9,903 nucleotides of DNA from Chloroflexota bacterium (GTDB taxonomy: Bacteria; Chloroflexota; Dehalococcoidia; SHYB01). The DNA lies in the NCBI GenBank assembly GCA_016200725.1, contig JACQEE010000011.1, positions 1 to 9,903 on the forward strand, read 5' to 3'. A program made the translations under genes and the position numbers. Of the stretch, positions 2 through 9,540 are shown one piece after another. Numbering within the stretch: the first letter of the stretch is position 1; the number at the start of each line of letters is the position of its first letter. The notes beneath the pieces were generated by a model. The model searched no databases. It worked only from the letters and a program-made list of their open reading frames with translations, and had not been told where the DNA came from.

Positions 2-919
2 CTGAGCATGCTCTCAGGCTTCAACGGTATCGGCAACGACCGCGCCGCCGACCTCATGTCTCGCGCCTACAACGACTGGGTCATCGACTGGTGTTCAGCC
101 GGCCCCGAGCGCCTATTCCCTGCCGCCGTCCTCCCTCTCGTGTCGGCCACCGACTCCGCGAACGAGATGCGCCGCGTCGCAGCGAATGGCTTCAAACTCG
201 CGATGGTGCGCCCCATCCCGCTCCGTGGCCTCTACCCGCTCCAGCGTGAGTACGACGCCCTCTGGCACTCCTTCTGCGAGACGCGCCTCGTCGTCGGGAT
301 GCATACCCTTGGCGGCCCAGGCACACCTTGGGGCGATCTGCTCGACCGCGCCGCCGACAAGGCGCAGATGCCCGGCCCTGCGCCCACGCGCTGCCTGGGC
401 TTCGTCCACGAGGCGATGACGTTCGTGGCGAGCATGCTCCTCTCCGGCTTCTTCGAGCGCTTTCCCAACATGCCGCCTATGGCCATCATGGAGTCCAACG
501 CCACCTGGCTCCCCATCGTCCTCGAGCAGTGCGACCGCGTCGCCAAGAGCAAGAGCGGCCCGCGCCTTGCCGCGCTCCCTAGCGAGACGTTCATGTCGCG
601 CTGCTTCATCGCCTTCGAGGGCGACGAAGAAGGCGTCCATAAGCAGCACACGTACTTCGAGAACATCGGCATCTGGTCATCCGACCTTCCCCACATCGAT
701 GGCTCCGACGCTTGGACCGCCATGCGCGAGATGGATGAGGCCGGCGTCCCCGAGAAGGTCCAGGGCAAACTCCTCGGCGCCAACGCCTGCCGCATGTACG
801 GCATCCCTGCGAAGACGTTCACCACGACCGAGCCTGAGAGCTACGGCCCGCGACCAGCCTGGTTCCCCAGCGACGCTGACCTCGACCGCGAGTTCGCCAG
901 CCGCGTGGCCCCTCGATAA
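2..919 (+). CDS. Amidohydrolase-2 family metal-dependent hydrolase, 5' truncated by window edge
   Basis: The frame is open to the left edge, so the first ATG (position 8) is probably internal. The N-terminal metal-binding D/H-x-H strand of the TIM barrel is missing. Alignment with the paralogue at 925-1941 suggests roughly 70-80 residues lie outside the window. Counting from the ATG at 8, the visible part has the barrel His (H99 in VGMHT), the acidic residue of the M-E-S-N-A-T-W-L-P segment (E162) and the metal-ligand Asp in SSDLPH (D226), with F-E-G-D-E just before it. These are hallmarks of amidohydrolase_2 enzymes (the ACMSD-like group: decarboxylases and hydrolases of carboxylated or cyclic substrates). 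The substrate cannot be told. It ends with TAA 5 nt before the next start, so the two paralogues are probably co-transcribed. The protein is cytoplasmic, with no signal peptide or membrane segment in the visible part. Confidence 0.88.
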   Translation: MSMLSGFNGIGNDRAADLMSRAYNDWVIDWCSAGPERLFPAAVLPLVSATDSANEMRRVAANGFKLAMVRPIPLRGLYPLQREYDALWHSFCETRLVVGMHTLGGPGTPWGDLLDRAADKAQMPGPAPTRCLGFVHEAMTFVASMLLSGFFERFPNMPPMAIMESNATWLPIVLEQCDRVAKSKSGPRLAALPSETFMSRCFIAFEGDEEGVHKQHTYFENIGIWSSDLPHIDGSDAWTAMREMDEAGVPEKVQGKLLGANACRMYGIPAKTFTTTEPESYGPRPAWFPSDADLDREFASRVAPR

Positions 920-924
920 CCTCC

Positions 925-1941
925 ATGTCACCGACGATTCCCCAGCGGCGCGTGTTCGACGCCGACGCCCATCTGGTCGAGGCTCCGTTCCTCGTCGATT
1001 CCTGGAAGTCCGCCGCCGGTCCCCCGGCACCGATGGCTCCGGGTCACTACGAGCATTCGCGCGATCGCCTCGCTCGGATGGACGCGCAGGGCATCCAATG
1101 CGCGCTGCTCTTTCCCACCCTCTTTCAGCACATCGGTCTCGTCGGTGATGTGACGGCGAGCACGACGCTTGCTCGCGCGTACAACGATTGGGCGCACGAC
1201 TACGCCTCCGCCGACGCAACGCGCCTTCTTCCCATCGGCATCCTTCCGCTCCAGGGCATCGACGCCTCGAACGTCGAGGTCCGTCGCGTCGCCGCCCTAG
1301 GCTTCCGCGCCGTGCTCGTGCCGCCGCAGTTGATCGATGGCCGCTACGTCACGAGCGCGCACTTCGATCCCCTCTGGAAAGCCATCGCCGACGCTGGCCT
1401 CCTCGCCTCGGTCCATCCGCCACTCGCGGCGGTGGGCAATGAGATGACGTCCTACGCAAAGGTAGCCGCGACCGCAGGCGCCTGGTCTGGCGTCGGCGAC
1501 GCGCTTGCGGCGATTGCCCCGGCGATGGACTGCAACGCCTTCCTCATGACCTTCATGTCGCGCGGCGTGCTCGAGAAATTCCCGACGCTGCGCATCGCCT
1601 TCTTCCACGCCGGCGCCGCATGGCTGCCGCTCGCCCTCGAGAAGACCGAGACCGCGATGTGGCTTTGCAATCAGCGCGACCCTGTCAGCCTGGAGCCCGG
1701 CCAGGTGTTCGAGAGCCGCAGGAACTTCGTCACGTTCGGTGCGGGCGACGGCAGCGTCCGCCGCATGCCCGATACCTTCGCTCGCCTCGCCGCCTGGGGC
1801 TCCCACCACCCGTACCCCGGCACTGGCTCAGCTGCCGATGCCATCGCCGACCTCAAGCGCGGGGGCGTTCCCAAGGCCACCATCGCTGCGCTGATGGGTG
1901 GCAATGCGGCCCGTGTTCTCCAGGGAGTCACCGCACGATGA
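925..1941 (+). CDS. Amidohydrolase-2 family protein, paralogue of the upstream gene, with altered metal-site Asp
   Basis: A 338-aa protein with amidohydrolase_2 landmarks: D-A-D-A-H at residues 12-16, barrel His H164 (ASVHPP), and FFHAGAAWLPLALEK at 226-240. It shares the RAYNDW block (85-90), R-R-V-A-A-x-G-F (120-127) and a matching C-terminal helix (GGVPKATIAALMGGNAARV) with the upstream gene, pointing to a tandem duplication. The unusual point is the position of the usual metal-ligand/catalytic Asp (family pattern W-G/A-S-D-x-P-H), which here reads WGSHHPYPG, with H294 instead of Asp. The protein may therefore have altered metal chemistry, be non-hydrolytic (a decarboxylase or hydratase type), or be inactive. 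The ATG at 925 is chosen because it lies just before the conserved first strand; no strong ribosome-binding site is visible. The stop overlaps the next start as ATGA (1938-1941). Confidence 0.87.
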   Translation: MSPTIPQRRVFDADAHLVEAPFLVDSWKSAAGPPAPMAPGHYEHSRDRLARMDAQGIQCALLFPTLFQHIGLVGDVTASTTLARAYNDWAHDYASADATRLLPIGILPLQGIDASNVEVRRVAALGFRAVLVPPQLIDGRYVTSAHFDPLWKAIADAGLLASVHPPLAAVGNEMTSYAKVAATAGAWSGVGDALAAIAPAMDCNAFLMTFMSRGVLEKFPTLRIAFFHAGAAWLPLALEKTETAMWLCNQRDPVSLEPGQVFESRRNFVTFGAGDGSVRRMPDTFARLAAWGSHHPYPGTGSAADAIADLKRGGVPKATIAALMGGNAARVLQGVTAR

Positions 1942-2339
1942 CCACTCAACCCTTCCAACCTGGCGGGTTCGCGAAGCACCTCGCCATGACGCTCGAGCGT
2001 GGGGAGTTGGGCACCGCGCGCAGCCGCATGACCGTGTTGCCGATCCATATGCAGAGCGCGGGGGTGATGCAAGGCGGCCTGCTCGTCGCTCTGGCTGATA
2101 TGGCCATGTCGGCCTCGCTGGGCGGGATGCTCGAGCCGGGACAGGTGCCCACAACCATCGAGATGAAGGTCAACTTCCTCCGGCCAGCCCTCCTGGGCGA
2201 CGAACTGGTCGCTGAGGCACGTGTGGTGCAGAAGGGCAAGAGCGTTGCGGTAACCGACGTGGAGATCCGTAACGCCAAGACCGGCAAGGTGCTGCTCAAG
2301 GGGCTGGGGACTCAGATGTTCGTCCCCAAGACTAACTGA
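1938..2339 (+). CDS. PaaI-type hotdog-fold acyl-CoA thioesterase
   Basis: A 133-aa single hotdog domain, the normal length for PaaI/YbgC-like thioesterases that hydrolyse acyl- or aryl-CoA thioesters in the cytoplasm. The signature is at residues 37-57: H-M-Q-S-A-G-V-M-Q-G-G-L-L-V-A-L-A-D-M-A-M, matching N-x-x-G-x-x-H-G-G-x-x-x-x-L-x-D, with the putative general base D54. The central helix is followed by the strand IEMKVNFLRPA (74-84), typical of the fold. The common H-G-G histidine is Q45 here, so the active site departs from the consensus. The start at 1938 overlaps the previous stop (ATGA). GGGAG at 1923-1927 could serve as a weak Shine-Dalgarno site, and translational coupling is likely. 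It may release CoA products of the amidohydrolase unit; that is an inference from position. The 3' end overlaps the convergent oxidoreductase gene by 8 bases. Confidence 0.87.
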   Translation: MTTQPFQPGGFAKHLAMTLERGELGTARSRMTVLPIHMQSAGVMQGGLLVALADMAMSASLGGMLEPGQVPTTIEMKVNFLRPALLGDELVAEARVVQKGKSVAVTDVEIRNAKTGKVLLKGLGTQMFVPKTN

Positions 2340-3561
2340 GCAGCCCCCGCACGTTGAACGCCGCGTCCTGCAACTGCGCGAGTTTCGTCGAAAGGTCCGT
2401 CTTCCGCTGGATGAGGCGCTGGAAGACCGGAAACTCCTTCGCAGACGTGTTGACCGAGAAGTAGGCTCGCAGCACGTGCTGTTTCAGATACAGCACCACG
2501 AACGCCTTGTCCTCCATTTTGCCGCGCACCAGCGCCTGGTCGTGCTCCGATTCGTCGCCCGCGAACTCGAGGTGTAGGTCGAAGATGTCGGACCACACAT
2601 ACGTCAGCAGGTTGTAGGGCGTCTCCTTCCCCGCCATGTTCATCCCCGCGATCTGTCCCGTGTACTCCGCGTGGCCCCAGTGCTCGACGCGCCGCCGCTT
2701 GCCGAAGACGGGGTCGGGGTAGTTCACCACGTCGCCCGCAGCGAAGATGTTTGGGTGCGACGTATGCATCTTCTCGTCGACCACGATCCCGTTATCGACG
2801 CGCACGCCGCCCGCGATGGCCACTTCCGTCCGCGGCCTGATACCCACGCCGACGACCACGAAATCGCAGGGGTACTCCCGGCTCTGCGTCTTCACCGACG
2901 CAACTCGTCCGCTGCCGTCGAACGACTCCACGCCGTCGCCCGTCACGAATCGAACGCCGCGCTCCTCGCAGTAGCGCTTCACGAAGCCGGCGAGTCCTGC
3001 GCCCGCGAACTTCGGCCAGATATGCGGCAGTGCCTCCAGCACCGTCACCTGCACGCCCTTCTTCGCCAGCGATGCCGCGACCTCGAGGCCGATGAAGCCC
3101 GCACCCACCAGCACCGCCCGCTTCCCCGGCAATGCCTCCGCGCCGATGGCCTGCGCATCCTCGACCGTCCTCAGATAGTGGATGCCTCCGAGGTTCGACC
3201 CTGCCAAGCGCGTCAGCCGCACCGGCTCGCCGCCCGTCGCGATGAGCAACTTCTCGTAGTGACACGTCTCGCCGTTCGACAGCGACACCGTCGCCTTCGC
3301 CGGGTCGAGCCCCTCGCCCTTCGTCCCCAGCAGCACGGTGATGTTGTTCTCGCGATACCACGCCTCCGGAGCGAGCAGCACCTTCTCGAGCGGCATCTCC
3401 CCGCGCAGAAAGTGTTTCGATAGCGGCGGCCGGTTGTACGGCACGAGCCGCTCTTCCGACACGAGCGTGATGCTCGCCGTCGCGTCCGCCTTCCGCAGTT
3501 GCTTCGCCGCCTCCAGCGCCGCCATTCCGCCCCCGATGATCAGGTACTTCGTCGACTGCAT
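2332..3561 (-). CDS. FAD/NAD(P)H-dependent oxidoreductase, ferredoxin/rubredoxin-reductase family
   Basis: A 409-aa flavoprotein with the full two-dinucleotide-domain layout. An FAD Rossmann motif G-G-G-M-A-A lies at residues 10-15 (after YLII), and PYNRPPLSK at 41-49 is typical of ferredoxin reductases. LLIATGG (105-111) follows, then the NAD(P)H Rossmann motif G-A-G-F-I-G at 153-158, with E175 ending the next strand, which favours NADH. The second FAD motif is HPNIFAAGDV (269-278), and EHWGHA at 293-298 precedes the C-terminal reductase domain. There is no redox-active CxxxxC, so it belongs with putidaredoxin, rubredoxin or ferredoxin reductases rather than glutathione reductase. It would pass electrons to an iron-sulfur partner or oxygenase, which is not visible here. 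The start is well supported: on the minus strand GGAGG (3573-3569) sits 7 nt before the ATG. It is transcribed divergently from the selenoprotein operon and converges on the thioesterase gene. Confidence 0.92.
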   Translation of the reverse strand: MQSTKYLIIGGGMAALEAAKQLRKADATASITLVSEERLVPYNRPPLSKHFLRGEMPLEKVLLAPEAWYRENNITVLLGTKGEGLDPAKATVSLSNGETCHYEKLLIATGGEPVRLTRLAGSNLGGIHYLRTVEDAQAIGAEALPGKRAVLVGAGFIGLEVAASLAKKGVQVTVLEALPHIWPKFAGAGLAGFVKRYCEERGVRFVTGDGVESFDGSGRVASVKTQSREYPCDFVVVGVGIRPRTEVAIAGGVRVDNGIVVDEKMHTSHPNIFAAGDVVNYPDPVFGKRRRVEHWGHAEYTGQIAGMNMAGKETPYNLLTYVWSDIFDLHLEFAGDESEHDQALVRGKMEDKAFVVLYLKQHVLRAYFSVNTSAKEFPVFQRLIQRKTDLSTKLAQLQDAAFNVRGLLS

Positions 3562-3624: not shown

Positions 3625-4638
3625 ATGAACCATCGGTTTCACTCCCCCGAAATCGCCACGGAAGGCCCGGTGGCTGCTATCGAGACCTGCTTCGACCGGG
3701 GCTGGACCGACGGCCTGCCGGTGATGCCGCCCACACCCGACCGAGTGGCCGAGTTCCTCGATGTCGTAGCGCTCAAGCCCGACGAGGTCATCGGCGCGGT
3801 GCCCACTCGAGAAGTGGTCATCACTGCTGAGAAAGTGGCCATCAACGCCGTCATGGCGGGCTGCCTGCCTGAATATATGCCCGTGGTCGTGGCCGCCTGC
3901 CGCGCCATGTGCGATGAGCCGTTCAACCTCCACGCCAACTCCGGCACGCTTTCCGGCGCGGCGCAGATCGTGGTCGTGAATGGCCCCATCCGCAAGGAAC
4001 TGGGCATCAACTCCGGCCTCGGTGTCTTCGGCCCGGGCTTCCGCGCCAACGCGACGATTGGCCGGGCCGTACGTCTGGTCATTCGCAACGTCACGCGTTC
4101 CATCCCTGGGTTTCTCGATCGGGCTTCCTTCTCCCAGCCCGGACGGTTCACCTGGTGCTTCGGCGAGAACGAGGAGGACAGCCCCTGGACGCCCCTGCAC
4201 GCAGAGCGAGGCCTGGCCCCCGAGGCGAGCGCGGTAACGCTCTTCGCGCCGATGGATCCGGTCAAAGCCACGGGCCTGCACCCGAAATCGCCTGAGTCGT
4301 TCCTCGAACGAGCGGCATTCCTGGTGCGGACGGTCTGGACATACAAGCAGTCCTCCAGTTACGACTCATGCCGGAGCCTGCTTGCTGTCATCGGCTGGGA
4401 GCATATGAACCTGTGCCTCCAGGCCGGGTGGAGCAAAGCCGACATCCGGAATTATCTGTTCCCTCGGCTCAGGGCGCCGGGTAATGGGTGGGAGTTCCGA
4501 TCGCCCATTGCCAGTCCCGACAATATTCTCGTGGTGGCCGCCGGCGGGCCAGCCGTGATGCAGAGTTGGTTCATGGTGCCGTTCCCGAGCCATGGCCCGG
4601 TGACGCGGGCGGTCGAGCCTGCGAGGAGGACGTCATGA
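3625..4638 (+). CDS. Conserved protein of unknown function, translationally coupled to the UGSC selenoprotein
   Basis: A 337-aa protein whose biochemical family I cannot name. Blocks that look strongly conserved are GWTDGLPVMPPTPDRV (26-41), VAINAVMAGCLPEYMPVVVAA (in residues 71-91), IVVVNGPIRKELGINSG (115-131) and GPGFRANATIGRAVRLVIRNV (in 137-156). A C-terminal strand-like segment ILVVAAGGPA lies at 301-310. Seven cysteines are present (22, 80, 92, 96, 178, 249, 264); C92 and C96 are close together, and C80 sits in the M-A-G-C motif. There is no signal peptide or transmembrane helix, so it is probably cytoplasmic. Its TGA overlaps the ATG of the selenoprotein gene as ATGA (4635-4638), the strongest hint of function: the product probably acts with, or is the redox partner or catalytic subunit for, the UGSC protein. 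The start at 3625 is chosen by the frame limit and the nearby -10-like box; no Shine-Dalgarno site is obvious. Confidence 0.85.
   Translation: MNHRFHSPEIATEGPVAAIETCFDRGWTDGLPVMPPTPDRVAEFLDVVALKPDEVIGAVPTREVVITAEKVAINAVMAGCLPEYMPVVVAACRAMCDEPFNLHANSGTLSGAAQIVVVNGPIRKELGINSGLGVFGPGFRANATIGRAVRLVIRNVTRSIPGFLDRASFSQPGRFTWCFGENEEDSPWTPLHAERGLAPEASAVTLFAPMDPVKATGLHPKSPESFLERAAFLVRTVWTYKQSSSYDSCRSLLAVIGWEHMNLCLQAGWSKADIRNYLFPRLRAPGNGWEFRSPIASPDNILVVAAGGPAVMQSWFMVPFPSHGPVTRAVEPARRTS
4624..4629 (+). promoter_or_regulatory. Ribosome-binding site of the UGSC selenoprotein gene
   Basis: A perfect AGGAGG, embedded in the last codons of the upstream gene, lies 5 nt before the ATG at 4635. It fixes the start of the selenoprotein gene and argues against the longer upstream frame that begins at 4488. 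Confidence 0.75.
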
Positions 4639-5189
4639 CAGCGACCGCGAACAAGCCGTACGTGATTCTCGACCCCACCTCCGGCCCGCTGCGGGGCAAG
4701 GACTCGCGTCCGATGGCGAGACGCCGGGTCACGCTGGATGGCGTGGTGCTGGGATTGCTCTCCAACGGAAAATCGAATAGCCAGGAATTGCTCGACGCCG
4801 TTTTCGCGGAACTGGCGAAGAGTTTTGAACTGCTCCAGTCGCTGCGATTCCGCAAGGACAGCGTCTCCGTGCCGCCACGCAAGGAACACTTCGCGCAACT
4901 GACGCGCGAAGCCGGGGCCGTGGTCACCGCGATAGGCGACTGAGGGTCGTGCTCGTCGCGCAGTATGCGCGACGCGATCGAACTGGAGTGGGCCGGCGTG
5001 CCGTCGGTGGCCATCATCGCAGAGCCGCTGGTCGGTTCGGCGGAGGCGATGAAGCGCCTGAGCGGCGTTCCCGATTACGAGTACATCGTGGTGCCGTTCC
5101 CGGTCGGCGGCCTGAGCCGCGAGCAGATCGAGGCGCGGGCGAAGGAGATCGCGCCCGCCGTCATTCGACTCCTGACAGCCAAACACTAG
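4635..5189 (+). CDS. UGSC-family selenoprotein with in-frame UGA read as selenocysteine
   Basis: Read through the in-frame TGA at 4941-4943, this gene encodes 184 residues and ends at TAG. The N-terminal half carries YVILDPTSGP (9-18), RVTLDGVVLGLLSNGKSN (31-48), an amphipathic helix (51-66) and GAVVTAIGD (94-102). Selenocysteine is residue 103, giving D-U-G-S-C-S-S-R-S-M-R-D-A-I-E-L-E (102-118), followed by GVPSVAIIAEP and a C-terminal helical region. This is the layout of the family called UGSC (seleno)protein, whose cysteine forms read CGSC. The U-x-x-C arrangement resembles thioredoxin-like redox motifs, but the true function is unknown. The downstream half alone begins mid-domain and has no ribosome-binding site, so it is not an independent gene. 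A SECIS-like hairpin follows the UGA. Stop/start overlap couples it to the upstream gene. Sec insertion would need selA, selB, selC and selD elsewhere in the genome. Without that machinery, only a 102-aa truncated product would be made. Confidence 0.93.
4941..4943 (+). other. In-frame UGA codon, predicted selenocysteine
   Basis: The TGA lies in the same frame as both the N-terminal half (4635 onward) and the downstream open frame to 5189. It is followed directly by GGG TCG TGC (Gly-Ser-Cys), so the codon occupies the U of the UGSC motif, where other family members have Sec or Cys. A conventional gene caller would end the gene here and start a spurious one at the ATG at 4965. Confidence 0.92.
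4954..4974 (+). promoter_or_regulatory. Putative bacterial SECIS element
   Basis: Arms CGTCGCGCA (4954-4962) and TGCGCGACG (4966-4974) pair perfectly over 9 bp around loop GTA (or AGTAT if the closing A-U pair opens). The apical loop begins 19 nt after the UGA and has G in its first two positions. Known bacterial SECIS elements lie inside the coding region just after the UGA, with the apical loop about 16-37 nt away and a G among its first two bases; this hairpin fits. Its predicted role is to bind SelB carrying Sec-tRNA. The loop is small compared with the E. coli fdhF example. Confidence 0.75.
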
Positions 5190-5210: not shown

Positions 5211-6371
5211 ATGCGGGCGTACAAGACCATCTCCGCGGACACACACCTGGAGATCTCTCCGGAGCAATGGACGTGGCGGTTGCCCGCGAAGTACCGGGAT
5301 CGAGGGCCGCGCGTCGTCGCGCTCACCGAGAAGGACCTGCCGCCGGGGCTGCCCGTGTTCGGCGAGGGGTGGATCGCCGAAGGCATCGACCGAGTCGTGC
5401 CGCTGGGCATGAACCTGGCGGCGGGGAAGAAGCCTCAAGAGCGCCGCACGTACGGTTGGTACTACCGCGAACACCACGTCGGCGCGGGTGACGCAGCGCA
5501 GCGAGTGCGCGAGATGGACCAGGATGGCGTGGACGCCGAGGTAGAGTACGCGGCGGTCGCGGGCCCCGGTTTCCTCGGGCGCCTCAAGGACCGCGATCTC
5601 TACCTCGCCTGCATCGAGGCGTACAACGACTTCCTGGCCAAGGACTTTTGCGCCTACTCCCCCGAGCGTCTGTGGGGCCTGGCCCAGGTGCCGGTGACCG
5701 GCATCGAAGACGCGGCGGCGGAACTGAAGCGCACGCGCGACTACAAGACCCTTAGGGGCTGGCAGTTGGGCTCATGGCCCAGCGGCAAGAGCCACCCCTC
5801 GCCGGAGGACGACGCATTCTGGAGCCTCGCGCTCAGCCTCAAGGCGCCGCTCACCGCGCACGTCACCTTCAGCCCGGAGGCCGCCGGCGAGTCGAGGCGC
5901 AGCGGGCAGATCCTCGAGGGTACTGGCGCCCCGCTGCATTCCGTGATGGCCGGCGGCTGCCCGCGCCCTGCCTACACCGTGTGCCAGATGATTGTTCATG
6001 GCGTGCTCGACCGCTTCCCCAACCTGCGCATCCATTTCGCAGAGACCGGTGCGGGCTGGGCCCCGTACTTCATGGAGCATGCCGATCAGATCTATGAGCA
6101 GTTCGGTCCCGCCAAAGGCGTCAAACTCAACCGGCTTCCCAGCGAATACTTCAAGCGATTCGCCCTCCTCGGGTTCCAGACCGACCGCGCGGCGATGCGG
6201 AACCGGCACGCCATCGGCGTCCAGAACCTCTGCTGGGGCAACGACTTCCCCCATTCGGCGGGCGACTGGCCGGAGTCGCAGCGGGTGATCGCGGAGCAGA
6301 TGGCTGGCGTGCCCGGCGACGAGCGGCGGAAGATGGTGGGAGAGAACGTCGCACGGTTCTACGGAGGATGA
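5211..6371 (+). CDS. Amidohydrolase-2 family metal-dependent hydrolase in the selenoprotein operon
   Basis: A 386-aa TIM-barrel amidohydrolase with all expected ligands: SADTHLEI at residues 8-15 (D10, H12), barrel His H217 (LTAHVTF), RIHFAETGAGWAPYFMEHAD (in 273-292) with E278, and the metal or catalytic Asp in CWGNDFPHSAGDWP (D345). The N-terminal D-x-H-x-E pattern and long insert (about residues 35-95) fit the larger amidohydrolase_2 members that act on aromatic or heterocyclic acids, but no substrate can be assigned. GGAG (5201-5204) lies 6 nt before the ATG. It starts 21 nt after the selenoprotein TAG and is followed by the VOC gene one base after its own stop, so it is a central operon member. 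It is only distantly similar to the two paralogues at 2-1941. The protein is cytoplasmic, with no signal sequence. Confidence 0.92.
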   Translation: MRAYKTISADTHLEISPEQWTWRLPAKYRDRGPRVVALTEKDLPPGLPVFGEGWIAEGIDRVVPLGMNLAAGKKPQERRTYGWYYREHHVGAGDAAQRVREMDQDGVDAEVEYAAVAGPGFLGRLKDRDLYLACIEAYNDFLAKDFCAYSPERLWGLAQVPVTGIEDAAAELKRTRDYKTLRGWQLGSWPSGKSHPSPEDDAFWSLALSLKAPLTAHVTFSPEAAGESRRSGQILEGTGAPLHSVMAGGCPRPAYTVCQMIVHGVLDRFPNLRIHFAETGAGWAPYFMEHADQIYEQFGPAKGVKLNRLPSEYFKRFALLGFQTDRAAMRNRHAIGVQNLCWGNDFPHSAGDWPESQRVIAEQMAGVPGDERRKMVGENVARFYGG

Positions 6372-6901: not shown

Positions 6902-6928
6902 GGGCGCAATTGAATTGCGCCCCTACAG
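6902..6928 (-). repeat. REP palindrome 1, after the VOC gene
   Basis: Arms GGGCGCAATT (6902-6911) and AATTGCGCCC (6913-6922) pair perfectly around one base, followed by CTACAG. On the minus strand this reads CTGTAG then GGGGCGC, the same head as the other two copies. It starts two bases after the VOC stop codon, and its TGTAG head supplies the TAG stop (6925-6923) of the transposase gene. The stable hairpin could act as a transcript end for either converging gene, although no T-tract is present. Confidence 0.85.
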
Positions 6929-7489
6929 GAGAGTTCGTCGGACCCGAGGTCCGGCGTGATCGAGTCTGAGAAACCGGGGATTGTCCGAATCGTCGTTCCA
7001 ACGCTGGGGATTCTCCCGGATGTATCGCCGAATGCTCACCATCTCTTCAGGCCTTCGCAGTACATGCTCGTGAAAATTCCGTTGCCATAGTGGCAACCCA
7101 TCGCCGCCACGAGTCTTGTTGACAGTGCGGGTCGAAAACACCTTGAACGCTCTCACCACGTCACCGAGCCGGTACTCTTTTGTAGGGGCGCATTTAAAAT
7201 GTGCCCGTCCTTCCGACGGCGCCAACCCCACAAGGCCATGCAGATGGTTCGGCATGACCACCATTGCGTCCAGCACGAGGCCATCAAAGTGTTCCGCCAT
7301 CTCCCACCAGCATCGCTCCACAATCTTTCCGGCCTCGTTCAGTACCATGCGTCCTTCGGTCACCTCCCCAAACAACGCCTCCCGATGAAACGTGCAGAGC
7401 GTGACGAAGTACCACCCTGTCCGGTGATAGTCGTACTCCGGAAGCCGGATCGACTGCCGGTTTTGGTTGTACCAGTCCCAGGGAGTCAT
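6923..7489 (-). CDS. REP-associated tyrosine transposase (RAYT, Y1_Tnp/HUH family)
   Basis: A 188-aa protein with RAYT marks: the start context PEYDYHRTGWYFVTLCTF (17-34), the HUH metal-binding motif in VVMPNHLHGLV (77-87; H82 and H84), WQRNFHEHVLR (125-135) and the catalytic-tyrosine block IRRYIRENPQRW (143-154, Y146). RAYTs nick and join single-stranded DNA at REP hairpins. They are usually single-copy and seldom jump like IS elements, and this protein is near normal length. The frame stays open upstream to 7633, but that extension is a translation of REP palindrome 3, so the ATG at 7489 beside the conserved N-terminus is preferred; no Shine-Dalgarno site is visible. Residues about 95-104 (RAHFKCAPTK) are encoded by an internal REP copy in the variable loop after the HUH motif. 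The stop codon is part of REP 1. Confidence 0.9.
   Translation of the reverse strand: MTPWDWYNQNRQSIRLPEYDYHRTGWYFVTLCTFHREALFGEVTEGRMVLNEAGKIVERCWWEMAEHFDGLVLDAMVVMPNHLHGLVGLAPSEGRAHFKCAPTKEYRLGDVVRAFKVFSTRTVNKTRGGDGLPLWQRNFHEHVLRRPEEMVSIRRYIRENPQRWNDDSDNPRFLRLDHAGPRVRRTLL
7181..7207 (+). repeat. REP palindrome 2, inside the transposase coding region
   Basis: TGTAG is followed by arm GGGCGCATTT (7186-7195), one base, and arm AAATGTGCCC (7197-7206). One position is a G/T mismatch that can wobble-pair. Head and arm match REP 3 closely. On the coding strand of the transposase it is translated as part of RAHFKCAPTK without breaking the frame. Confidence 0.85.
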
Positions 7490-7558
7490 AAAAGCACTGT
7501 ACGGAGAGACGGCAACATGCGCGAGGGGTAGTTGGCACAGGGGATGAGGACGATCTTC

Positions 7559-7585
7559 TGTAGGGGCGCATTTCAAATGCGCCCG
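7559..7585 (+). repeat. REP palindrome 3, upstream of the LLM gene
   Basis: TGTAG is followed by perfect 10-bp arms GGGCGCATTT (7564-7573) and AAATGCGCCC (7575-7584) around one base. It lies 25 nt before the LLM start codon and just before a -10-like box, so it may influence promoter access or block read-through transcription. Confidence 0.85.
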
Positions 7586-7595
7586 ATCCATGCGG

Positions 7596-7601
7596 TAGAA
7601 T
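7596..7601 (+). promoter_or_regulatory. Putative -10 box of the LLM oxidoreductase gene
   Basis: TAGAAT preceded by TGCGG (extended -10-like TG) ends 9 nt before the ATG at 7611. The surrounding GGTAGAATCCGG closely resembles GGTAGCATCAGG in the same position before the gene at 3625. A start site about 6-8 nt downstream would give a leaderless or nearly leaderless transcript. No Shine-Dalgarno site precedes the ATG, which agrees with that reading. Confidence 0.4.
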
Positions 7602-7610
7602 CCGGTCACC

Positions 7611-8663
7611 ATGCGCATCGGCACGTACCACACCTTCCAGCACCCCGAGTGGACCGACCAGCGCGAGCTGTACCACCAGGAGTTCGAGCGCCTCGAACTC
7701 GCCGAGCGCCTTGGCTACGACGACGTCTGGATCCCCGAGCAGCACTTCACGCGCTACTGCCTCGCCGGCGACCCGCTCGCCCTGGCCAGCCACGCGGCGG
7801 CGCGCACCAAGCGCGTCCGCATCGGCATAGCCGTGATGAACCTCTCGTTCGCGCACCCGCTGCGCCTCGCCGAGGAGGCCGCGATCGTCGACGTCCTCAG
7901 CCGCGGCCGCCTGGACATGGGCATCGGGCGCGGCTACCAGCCGATTCAGTACCCCGTCTTCGGCGTCGCGATGGAGGAGACGCGCCAGCGCTTCGAGGAA
8001 GTGCTCGAGGTGCTGCTCAAGGCGTGGGGCACCGAGCGCTTCACCCACGATGGCCGCTTCTTCCACTACCCCGAGGTCAGCGTCTTCCCCAGGCCGTACA
8101 ACGGCAACAGCGTCTCGCTCATCATGGCGAGCAACAGCAAGGACAGCGCGCAGATCGCCGGCGCGAAGGGCCTCCCCGCCCTCATGGCGCGTCCCTTCAC
8201 CACCAACGAGCGCATCGGCGCCGACCTCGACGCATACACGTCGCACCTGCGCGAGTCGGGCCGCAGCGACGCCGCGATCGACATGCTGCTCGATAAGAGC
8301 GCGGTGATGAAGTTGTGCTACGTCGCGCCGACGGACCGCGAGGCGTACGAGGAGCCGCGCGAGGCGCTGCGCTGGCACGTAGACATTCTGCGCCGCATCA
8401 TGCTCCGCGCCGACGAGCCCGCGCCCGCGACCTACGACCACATGCGCGAGCGCCACGCCACGCTCGAGGCCTTCGACTACGACGCCTGGTGGCGCGACGT
8501 CCTCATCTTCGGCAGCCCCGCCCGTGTCCTCGAGCGCGTCCGCGAACTCCAGCGCATCGGCGTCCGCCGCCTCATCCTCTGGCACGGCCCCGGCGCCGTC
8601 GAGCACGTGAAGGTGGTGAGAAGCATGGAGTTGTTTGCGAAAGAGGTTAGGCCGGGGCTGTGA
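7611..8663 (+). CDS. LLM-class flavin-dependent oxidoreductase (bacterial luciferase-like monooxygenase)
   Basis: A 350-aa TIM-barrel protein of the bacterial luciferase/alkanesulfonate monooxygenase superfamily. Diagnostic segments are the N-terminal strand MRIGTYH, LGYDDVWIPEQHF (34-46, with the E-x-H pattern), IGIAVMNLSFAHPLRLAEE (in 71-89), and D-V-L-S-R-G-R-L-D-M-G-I-G-R-G-Y (94-109), the most conserved flavin-site block. The C-terminal FGSPARVLERVRELQRIGV corresponds to the usual G-x-P-x-x-V helix. Members use reduced FMN (or F420 in some lineages) supplied by a separate reductase to oxidise small organic compounds. The flavoprotein at 2332-3561 is not an obvious flavin reductase partner. 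The gene stands alone after the REP unit and converges on the nuclease gene. The start at 7611 places the first strand correctly. The substrate is unknown. Confidence 0.92.
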   Translation: MRIGTYHTFQHPEWTDQRELYHQEFERLELAERLGYDDVWIPEQHFTRYCLAGDPLALASHAAARTKRVRIGIAVMNLSFAHPLRLAEEAAIVDVLSRGRLDMGIGRGYQPIQYPVFGVAMEETRQRFEEVLEVLLKAWGTERFTHDGRFFHYPEVSVFPRPYNGNSVSLIMASNSKDSAQIAGAKGLPALMARPFTTNERIGADLDAYTSHLRESGRSDAAIDMLLDKSAVMKLCYVAPTDREAYEEPREALRWHVDILRRIMLRADEPAPATYDHMRERHATLEAFDYDAWWRDVLIFGSPARVLERVRELQRIGVRRLILWHGPGAVEHVKVVRSMELFAKEVRPGL

Positions 8664-8709: not shown

Positions 8710-9540
8710 TTATTCGTTGTTGCCTTGCGACATGATTGACCGAAGTCTGGCCGCCAGCTTGACTTCTAGATCCTTAATGTTGGTATAGAAAAGAGTATTG
8801 ATATGTCGTACGTCGAACGGTAGCGCGGTACCCTTCCTCGCAACGAGAACCGTTGGTCGCGAGAGCGCATGCGCCCACCCAACCTCGTAGAATACATTGG
8901 GGTTGTGATCAGAGAGTTCAGCGATGGTGACACGAGCTCTTTTTATGTGGTCTAACACTTCTTCGATTACGACGTTGCCGTGCTGAATCTCATCTCCCCT
9001 TTTGCACTCCAAGCCTGTGGCCGAACACGCTCTGCGGATCCCGTAGAGATAGGTATCCTCGAGCGTTTCGGCAAAGGGCATCACCACAAACGCGAGTTTG
9101 GGGAATTGGTCGGGAAGCGGCAGTCCGGTTGGGACCTTCGCAACAACTCTCGGCCCAAATATTTCGGGGTTCACTCGGGCTTCGAGATCCTGAAATGACC
9201 AAGTTTCTATATTCGCTGCTTTGGCAGTAGTCTGCGCCTCTCTGGTATAGCCTTTGTAGGCGACCATCAGAGCCTTGTCTATTAGCCCTGCTTGGCGGAG
9301 GAATTGGGCAACTGTTCCGAACTGTAGGACGGCCGACTTTGGTACTGGGGTCGAATAGTACTTACATTCCACTGCGGTACGTACGACCTGACCCGAAGGA
9401 GTTTCCTCTTCCAGATAGAGATCTATCTGGTTGCCTGCTAGGTTGACGTTCTGCCGCACGCGGCTTCCCCCGATGACTCGGTAAATCTGAGCAACAAAGT
9501 CTTCGAATTCCTTCCAATGCTTGACGTCTTGCGGTCCCAT
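8710..9540 (-). CDS. Mrr-like PD-(D/E)xK nuclease fused to a nucleoside-deoxyribosyltransferase/TIR-like domain; putative defence effector
   Basis: A 276-aa two-domain protein. Residues about 8-120 form an Mrr_cat-type restriction-endonuclease-like fold: helix W9-E-F-E-D-F-V-A-Q-I-Y, then D40 in NQIDLYL and E58-C-K60 in TAVECKYY, giving the D-(x17)-E-x-K triad, followed by VPKSAVLQF and a helix. Residues about 147-270 form a Rossmann-like nucleoside 2-deoxyribosyltransferase/TIR-like (DRHyd) domain: LAFVVMPFAE (149-158), KRGDEI (180-185), HIKRARVTIAELSDHNPNVF (in 198-217) and YEVGWAHALSRPTVLVA (218-234). E219 matches the catalytic Glu of that superfamily. Such pairings are typical of prokaryotic conflict systems, where one domain senses or cleaves DNA and the other degrades a nucleotide or NAD; which does what here is inference. 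GGAG on the minus strand (9552-9549) lies 8 nt before the ATG. Base composition is clearly lower in G+C than the genes to its left, suggesting horizontal transfer. Confidence 0.88.
   Translation of the reverse strand: MGPQDVKHWKEFEDFVAQIYRVIGGSRVRQNVNLAGNQIDLYLEEETPSGQVVRTAVECKYYSTPVPKSAVLQFGTVAQFLRQAGLIDKALMVAYKGYTREAQTTAKAANIETWSFQDLEARVNPEIFGPRVVAKVPTGLPLPDQFPKLAFVVMPFAETLEDTYLYGIRRACSATGLECKRGDEIQHGNVVIEEVLDHIKRARVTIAELSDHNPNVFYEVGWAHALSRPTVLVARKGTALPFDVRHINTLFYTNIKDLEVKLAARLRSIMSQGNNE

Follow-up and report, generated by a model that had tools for sequence, protein, structure and literature searches.

A UGSC-family gene with an in-frame UGA very probably read as selenocysteine in a Chloroflexota bacterium, and a tentative link of the family to GrdB/PrdB

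The stretch of DNA analysed here (the window; 9,903 nucleotides, positions 1 to 9,903 of contig JACQEE010000011.1, assembly GCA_016200725.1, from a Chloroflexota bacterium) contains a gene of the UGSC selenoprotein family at positions 4635-5189 of the forward strand. Translated with TGA as selenocysteine (Sec, U), the gene encodes 184 residues with a single internal TGA (4941-4943, residue U103) and a terminal stop at 5187-5189, and the motif at the Sec site reads GD-U-GSC-SSRSMRD. This translation agrees with an earlier note, made from the sequence alone, which had joined two same-frame open reading frames (ORFs) around one TGA into a product of this length with GD-U-GSC at the junction. A Shine-Dalgarno-like GAGGAGG (4623-4629), read from the sequence, lies 5 nt upstream of the ATG, and this ATG overlaps by 4 nt (ATGA, 4635-4638) the stop of a forward-strand gene for a 337-residue protein (3625-4638), called the partner below. 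The UGA is followed by a stem-loop at 4954-4974 of the same strand, described below as a selenocysteine insertion sequence (SECIS), and the third gene in line encodes an amidohydrolase (PF04909; 5211-6371, forward strand).

The ORF geometry alone is no evidence of readthrough, since 11 TGA-split frames of comparable size, including 4635-5189, are present in the GC-rich window. The same abundance of split frames favours the reading used by standard annotation, in which the UGA is a true stop and the locus holds a 102-residue protein, a pseudogene or a sequencing error. Homology, the shared end point of homologues and the hairpin set 4635-5189 apart from the chance frames. The joined frame scores 176.4 bits against PF24696 (cut-off 25) and 127.6 bits against NF041046 (cut-off 125), which bears out the family assignment of the earlier note, and the separate halves score 34.1 and 58.7 bits against NF041046, covering consecutive parts of the profile. 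The first in-frame start codon past the UGA is the ATG at 4965. The earlier note was right that the second half lacks a ribosome-binding site, as no Shine-Dalgarno-like sequence was found upstream of this ATG, but it placed the codon within the motif, and it lies eight codons past U, behind GSC.

The protein database search returned 44 matches, including the first half of the window's own gene. Not counting that one, 13 of the 44 terminate exactly one residue before U, with 81 to 42% identity to the window sequence. Cysteine (Cys) homologues of about 180 residues continue uninterrupted through CGSC as single proteins, so the downstream half does join the upstream half. A TGA was found at the Sec position in all 26 genome loci retrieved by first-half patterns from UGA copies, a search biased to such copies. 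In one class, with a member record named Dehalococcoidia, 133 of 393 genomes have PF24696 matches, and each of the strongest matches listed contains exactly one TGA; in a second class, to which the genome of an Actinomycetota metagenome-assembled genome (L008) belongs, 89 of 247 match, and TGA and TGA-free copies are mixed. Among the fetched loci, 177 profile matches span the Sec column, some places having been fetched twice, and dereplication left 133 unique UGA copies and 24 unique Cys copies with a [U/C]GSC motif in which Sec and Cys are exchanged. The UxxC motif is preserved in all 133 UGA copies, and UxxCxxC occurs in 88 of them versus none of the 24 Cys copies. The conservation of the downstream half, in frame and across classes, and the termination of independent sequences at the same residue argue against a true stop. 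The splitting of the gene by conventional annotation, claimed in the earlier note, is seen on plasmid pFER4 of Paracoccus ferrooxidans, where two hypothetical proteins are annotated in place of the UGA copy. A UGA-bearing subfamily with the motif ADUGSCTTCSVHD (L226-L229) was observed without the partner; its members seem to adjoin secA (four SecA among 62 neighbour proteins, L226 checked individually).

The hairpin, beginning 19 nt past the UGA, comprises a 9-bp stem (4954-4962/4966-4974) and a 3-nt loop GUA (4963-4965), with conserved core pairs at 4957-4962/4966-4971. It meets each constraint of the bacterial SECIS model given in an excerpt of a 2026 review (3-nt loop with G first, 9-bp stem, 19-nt spacing), and no difference from the model as given there was found (PMC13188914). 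All six core pairs are complete in 125 of the 133 UGA copies versus one of the 24 Cys copies (Fisher 7.8e-20), a control group not phylogenetically matched to the UGA copies; at least five pairs are formed in 133/133 versus 5/24, and the loop starts with GU in every UGA copy. Synonymous-codon resampling reached full pairing in 1280 of 26600 trials, and in 108 of 5000 for the window's peptide. Across 58 of the 87 distinct sequences, 98.6% of the cells are paired and both-side changes are seen at four of the six pairs; these changes total 29 cells, a number reached in none of 500 shuffles of the 58 sequences. A covariance model built on 22 relatives, excluding the window, located 4941-4982 at 45.9 bits (E 1.9e-11), the next match scoring 5.8 bits. 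Codon choice follows the stem: where the peptide is WSVHD, all 13 UGA copies have AGT together with the pairing GTC, and all four Cys copies have AGC, with the pairing GTC in one and a broken pair in the other three. This covariation and codon choice also speak against a true stop, which is very improbable.

The peptide SSRSMRD in the window is one compensated stem pair visible in the protein. The usual SSC-S-VHD is encoded by UGC AGU GUG CAC from its Cys onwards, and the window has CGC AGU AUG CGC. At stem pair 19-29, C-G thereby takes the place of U-A. The base on the 5' side replaces Cys by Arg and the one on the 3' side replaces His by Arg, so that a single base-pair swap in an intragenic RNA element accounts for both amino-acid changes. 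The U-x-x-C-x-x-C form is lost in the window. The two nearest relatives among the genomes searched (L137, L062) share the swap, and Arg at both positions occurs in six of the 133 UGA copies; the departure from the usual motif pointed out in the earlier note thus defines a small subclade. The RSMRD peptide is also found in three Cys copies with the stem broken in all three, which indicates that it is tolerated without the stem as well.

The selenocysteine machinery was searched for in relatives. In all six genomes bearing UGA copies that were analysed, among them G076 (first half 77% identical to the window) and G108 (68%), selA, selB, selD and tRNA-Sec are above the cut-offs, and in five of the six SelD too contains one TGA. 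The six include the two nearest relatives among the genomes searched. On pFER4 of Paracoccus ferrooxidans (L249/L259, 1329406-1331063 and 1334378-1336153, the UGSC, partner and selB region), the UGA copy adjoins the partner gene and lies 4.4 kb before selB; no tRNA gene was found in a 17-kb stretch of the plasmid at this locus. Because the SECIS is present here and the sel genes are present in relatives, delivery of Sec-tRNA by SelB to the UGA at 4941 via the hairpin 4954-4974, and with it Sec insertion in the source organism, is likely. Decoding of the UGA as another residue, by a tryptophan code or near-cognate suppression, would likewise yield the joined protein. It is the least probable of the readings considered: the column exchanges with Cys, not Trp, the SECIS is present, the partner gene uses TGA (4636-4638) as its stop, and relatives have the Sec machinery.

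Several observations weigh against the reading of 4635-5189 as a selenoprotein gene. One core pair is missing in eight of the 133 UGA copies, and two lesser covariation measures were matched by 3 and 24 of 500 shuffles. Three Cys copies reach 20 to 23 bits on the covariance model, which implies that part of its signal is plain sequence. Folding of a longer stretch was no better than in shuffles (z -0.69 for 4941-4995; z -2.29 for 4941-4980), and neither a tRNA gene nor an Rfam family match was found within the window. In a wider set of 18 genomes, 15 had a tRNA-Sec above the cut-off, with more than 62 bits in 14 of these, and 14 had SelB; fragmented assemblies may explain the misses. The tRNA-Sec cut-off alone is not specific, since 5 of 14 control genomes pass it (3 of 14 at E 1e-9). 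Taken with the conserved UGA, the exchange of Cys and Sec in one column, the SECIS with compensatory changes and the Sec machinery in relatives, the selenoprotein claim of the earlier note is upheld: 4635-5189 is with high confidence one UGSC-family gene whose UGA is read as selenocysteine.

The partner matches no Pfam or NCBIfam family, and has at least 7999 relatives. In a non-random sample of 54 UGSC copies from 51 loci, it lies near the UGSC gene on the same strand in 47, upstream in 38 and downstream in nine (one with a gene-sized gap); two of the remaining copies are at contig ends and five are without a partner. The order partner-UGSC-amidohydrolase is common to the window and its two nearest relatives among the genomes searched (L077, L078). 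Three PF04909 genes lie in a 6.4-kb part of the window (8-1941 and 5211-6371), and only the third stays adjacent to UGSC in these two relatives. In Sporomusa termitida and Vibrio europaeus, a UGSC-like domain is followed by the partner in one fused protein, with Met at the Sec place; by hhalign the fused domains score 97.6% to UGSC and 70.2% to the GrdB/PrdB set. The association with the partner and the fusion with UGSC-like domains are new in this analysis. The fusions (L251, L254) have DMGTS at the Sec/Cys place, lie near aconitase X and next to an enolase-like gene or one dependent on flavin adenine dinucleotide (FAD), and possibly represent a non-redox branch.

Among other neighbours, a thioredoxin reductase gene adjoins the partner-UGSC pair in L223, Arthrobacter (a Cys form, with thioredoxin) and Roseovarius, and lies nearby in Variovorax; its presence in a few such operons is a further new observation. 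In the window, a divergent gene on the reverse strand (2332-3561) encodes a ferredoxin-reductase-like protein of the FAD/NAD (nicotinamide adenine dinucleotide) type, which is a possible electron donor for the UGSC system; tblastn found no similar gene in the other 64 loci examined. DUF6282 proteins adjoin the partner or lie a few genes from it in four haloarchaeal plasmids (L246, L248, L252, L258) and account for two of 62 neighbour proteins, one of them L222; a DUF6282 protein is a possible pathway member. Further along the reverse strand of the window, 6923-7633 resembles a small transposase of the REP (repetitive extragenic palindromic) type, as we take it from the motif MPNHLHGL, and had no match in the Pfam scan. 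The gene at 8710-9540 of the same strand has a restriction endonuclease domain of the Mrr type (PF04471), and its C-terminal part is unassigned.

The AlphaFold2 model of the UGSC protein (mean predicted local distance difference test score 88.2, predicted template modelling score 0.84) suggests a Rossmann/flavodoxin-like alpha/beta domain. In the model, U103 lies between strand 95-98 and helix 104-119, and Cys106 is placed one helix turn past Sec103, so that the two would form a selenol/thiol pair. Profiles of 157 UGSC sequences were set against the Sec domain of six GrdB/PrdB-like proteins encoded in related genomes, the six of 24 fetched loci that passed a motif filter. In this comparison hhalign gave 95.0% (P 3.5e-8) with Sec aligned on Sec, and 91.5% (P 8.8e-7) with Sec masked; the reversed profile gave 1.2% and 30 column shuffles at most 1.1%. 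With full-length GrdB alone the value was 86.5%, and with alignment A2 75.4%. It appears from these profiles that UGSC and the Sec domain of GrdB/PrdB are distant relatives, a link that is new in this analysis. The suggestion, already in print, that a UGSC selenoprotein is an ordinary thioredoxin-like thiol/selenol oxidoreductase fits the UxxC redox motif of all 133 UGA copies. It is unlikely in view of the predicted Rossmann/flavodoxin-like fold and of the profile comparison, which ties UGSC to GrdB/PrdB with Sec on Sec; no thioredoxin is among the fold matches listed for the model, though such a listing cannot prove absence. A second GrdB-related selenoprotein group in the same genomes is made up of short PrdB-like genes that contain an in-frame UGA (UPxC; L196, L198-L200, L204, L206, L207, L211, L213).

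With the kinship to GrdB/PrdB as a guide, the most likely role of UGSC is that of the selenol (Sec) subunit in a GrdB-like reductase whose partner differs, although confidence in this falls somewhat short of even. The UGSC protein would probably be co-transcribed and work with the 337-residue partner and the downstream amidohydrolase. As in GrdB/PrdB, the selenolate would attack or reduce a small organic substrate held together with the partner in a putative complex; Cys106 would resolve the intermediate, a dithiol donor such as thioredoxin would reset the UGSC protein in the presumed redox cycle, and the amidohydrolase may process the substrate or the product. In glycine reductase, electrons pass from NADPH to thioredoxin reductase, thioredoxin and then GrdA and GrdB (PMC3091704). 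A little more tentatively, UGSC proteins may be a branch of the GrdB/PrdB superfamily that stands alone and, with the partner replacing GrdE/PrdA, makes up a new class of reductases, driven by dithiols and dependent on Sec or Cys. Chloroflexota, Actinomycetota, Gammaproteobacteria, Paracoccus and haloarchaea would use these enzymes to degrade organic compounds, and the operon in the window would be one pathway of this kind.

A number of results count against this proposed mechanism. D-proline reductase is described as depending on NADH and as having no link to thioredoxin (PMC10298544), a trxB-like gene is present in only eight of 65 loci (a count without a background rate), and the remaining neighbours of UGSC vary between loci. 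With the short PrdB-like sequences alone, hhalign gave 45.5%. PF07355 is absent from the eight families listed for 40 UGSC proteins in a scan to E 10, in which HMMER filters discard most matches above E ~0.1. The partner compared with ten GrdE-like proteins by hhalign scored 0.4%, the level of shuffles, and in the clade of the window the GrdB motif UxxCxxC is incomplete, its third Cys being absent.

In the Global Ocean Sampling (GOS) aquatic metagenomes, UGSC ranks among the most abundant selenoprotein families, with 255 sequences (PMC2398784). No assigned function was found in the literature searched, and the statement of the earlier note that the function is not established matches the 2026 review, an excerpt of which counts UGSC among families with largely uncharacterized functions (PMC13188914). 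The partnership, the fusion and the link to GrdB/PrdB make this selenoprotein a testable enzyme proposal, and the cultured Paracoccus ferrooxidans could serve as a testing ground, since a single plasmid of it carries selB together with the partner and a UGA copy.

Compared with the family defined by PF24696/NF041046, the gene shares the full-length match, the UGSC motif, the Sec/Cys exchange and the SECIS; it differs in that SSRSMRD replaces the usual SSCSVHD, the third Cys and the His both being Arg. It is thus a member of a known selenoprotein family with an unusual motif variant, and the functional lead is the new part. The UGSC/Unknown_1 fusion in the GOS selenoproteome, as far as an excerpt of that paper describes it, is alike in that a UGSC domain is fused to a conserved unknown domain, here the partner family in two records; it is unlike them in that both fusions found here carry Met at the Sec place (PMC2398784). 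We would guess that Unknown_1 is the partner family. UGSC differs from GrdB/PrdB in having no direct Pfam match to them and in standing alone without the rest of GrdB, and its partner is not detectably related to GrdE/PrdA. With GrdB/PrdB and the short PrdB-like proteins (PF07355), UGSC has in common the U-x-x-C motif with Sec aligned to Sec. The GrdB motif UxxCxxC (PMC13188914) is the form that recurs in the 88 UGSC copies counted above, and behind the U-x-x-C of both GrdB/PrdB and UGSC come an E-x-x-G-I/V-P segment and an HP/PFP-x-G segment.
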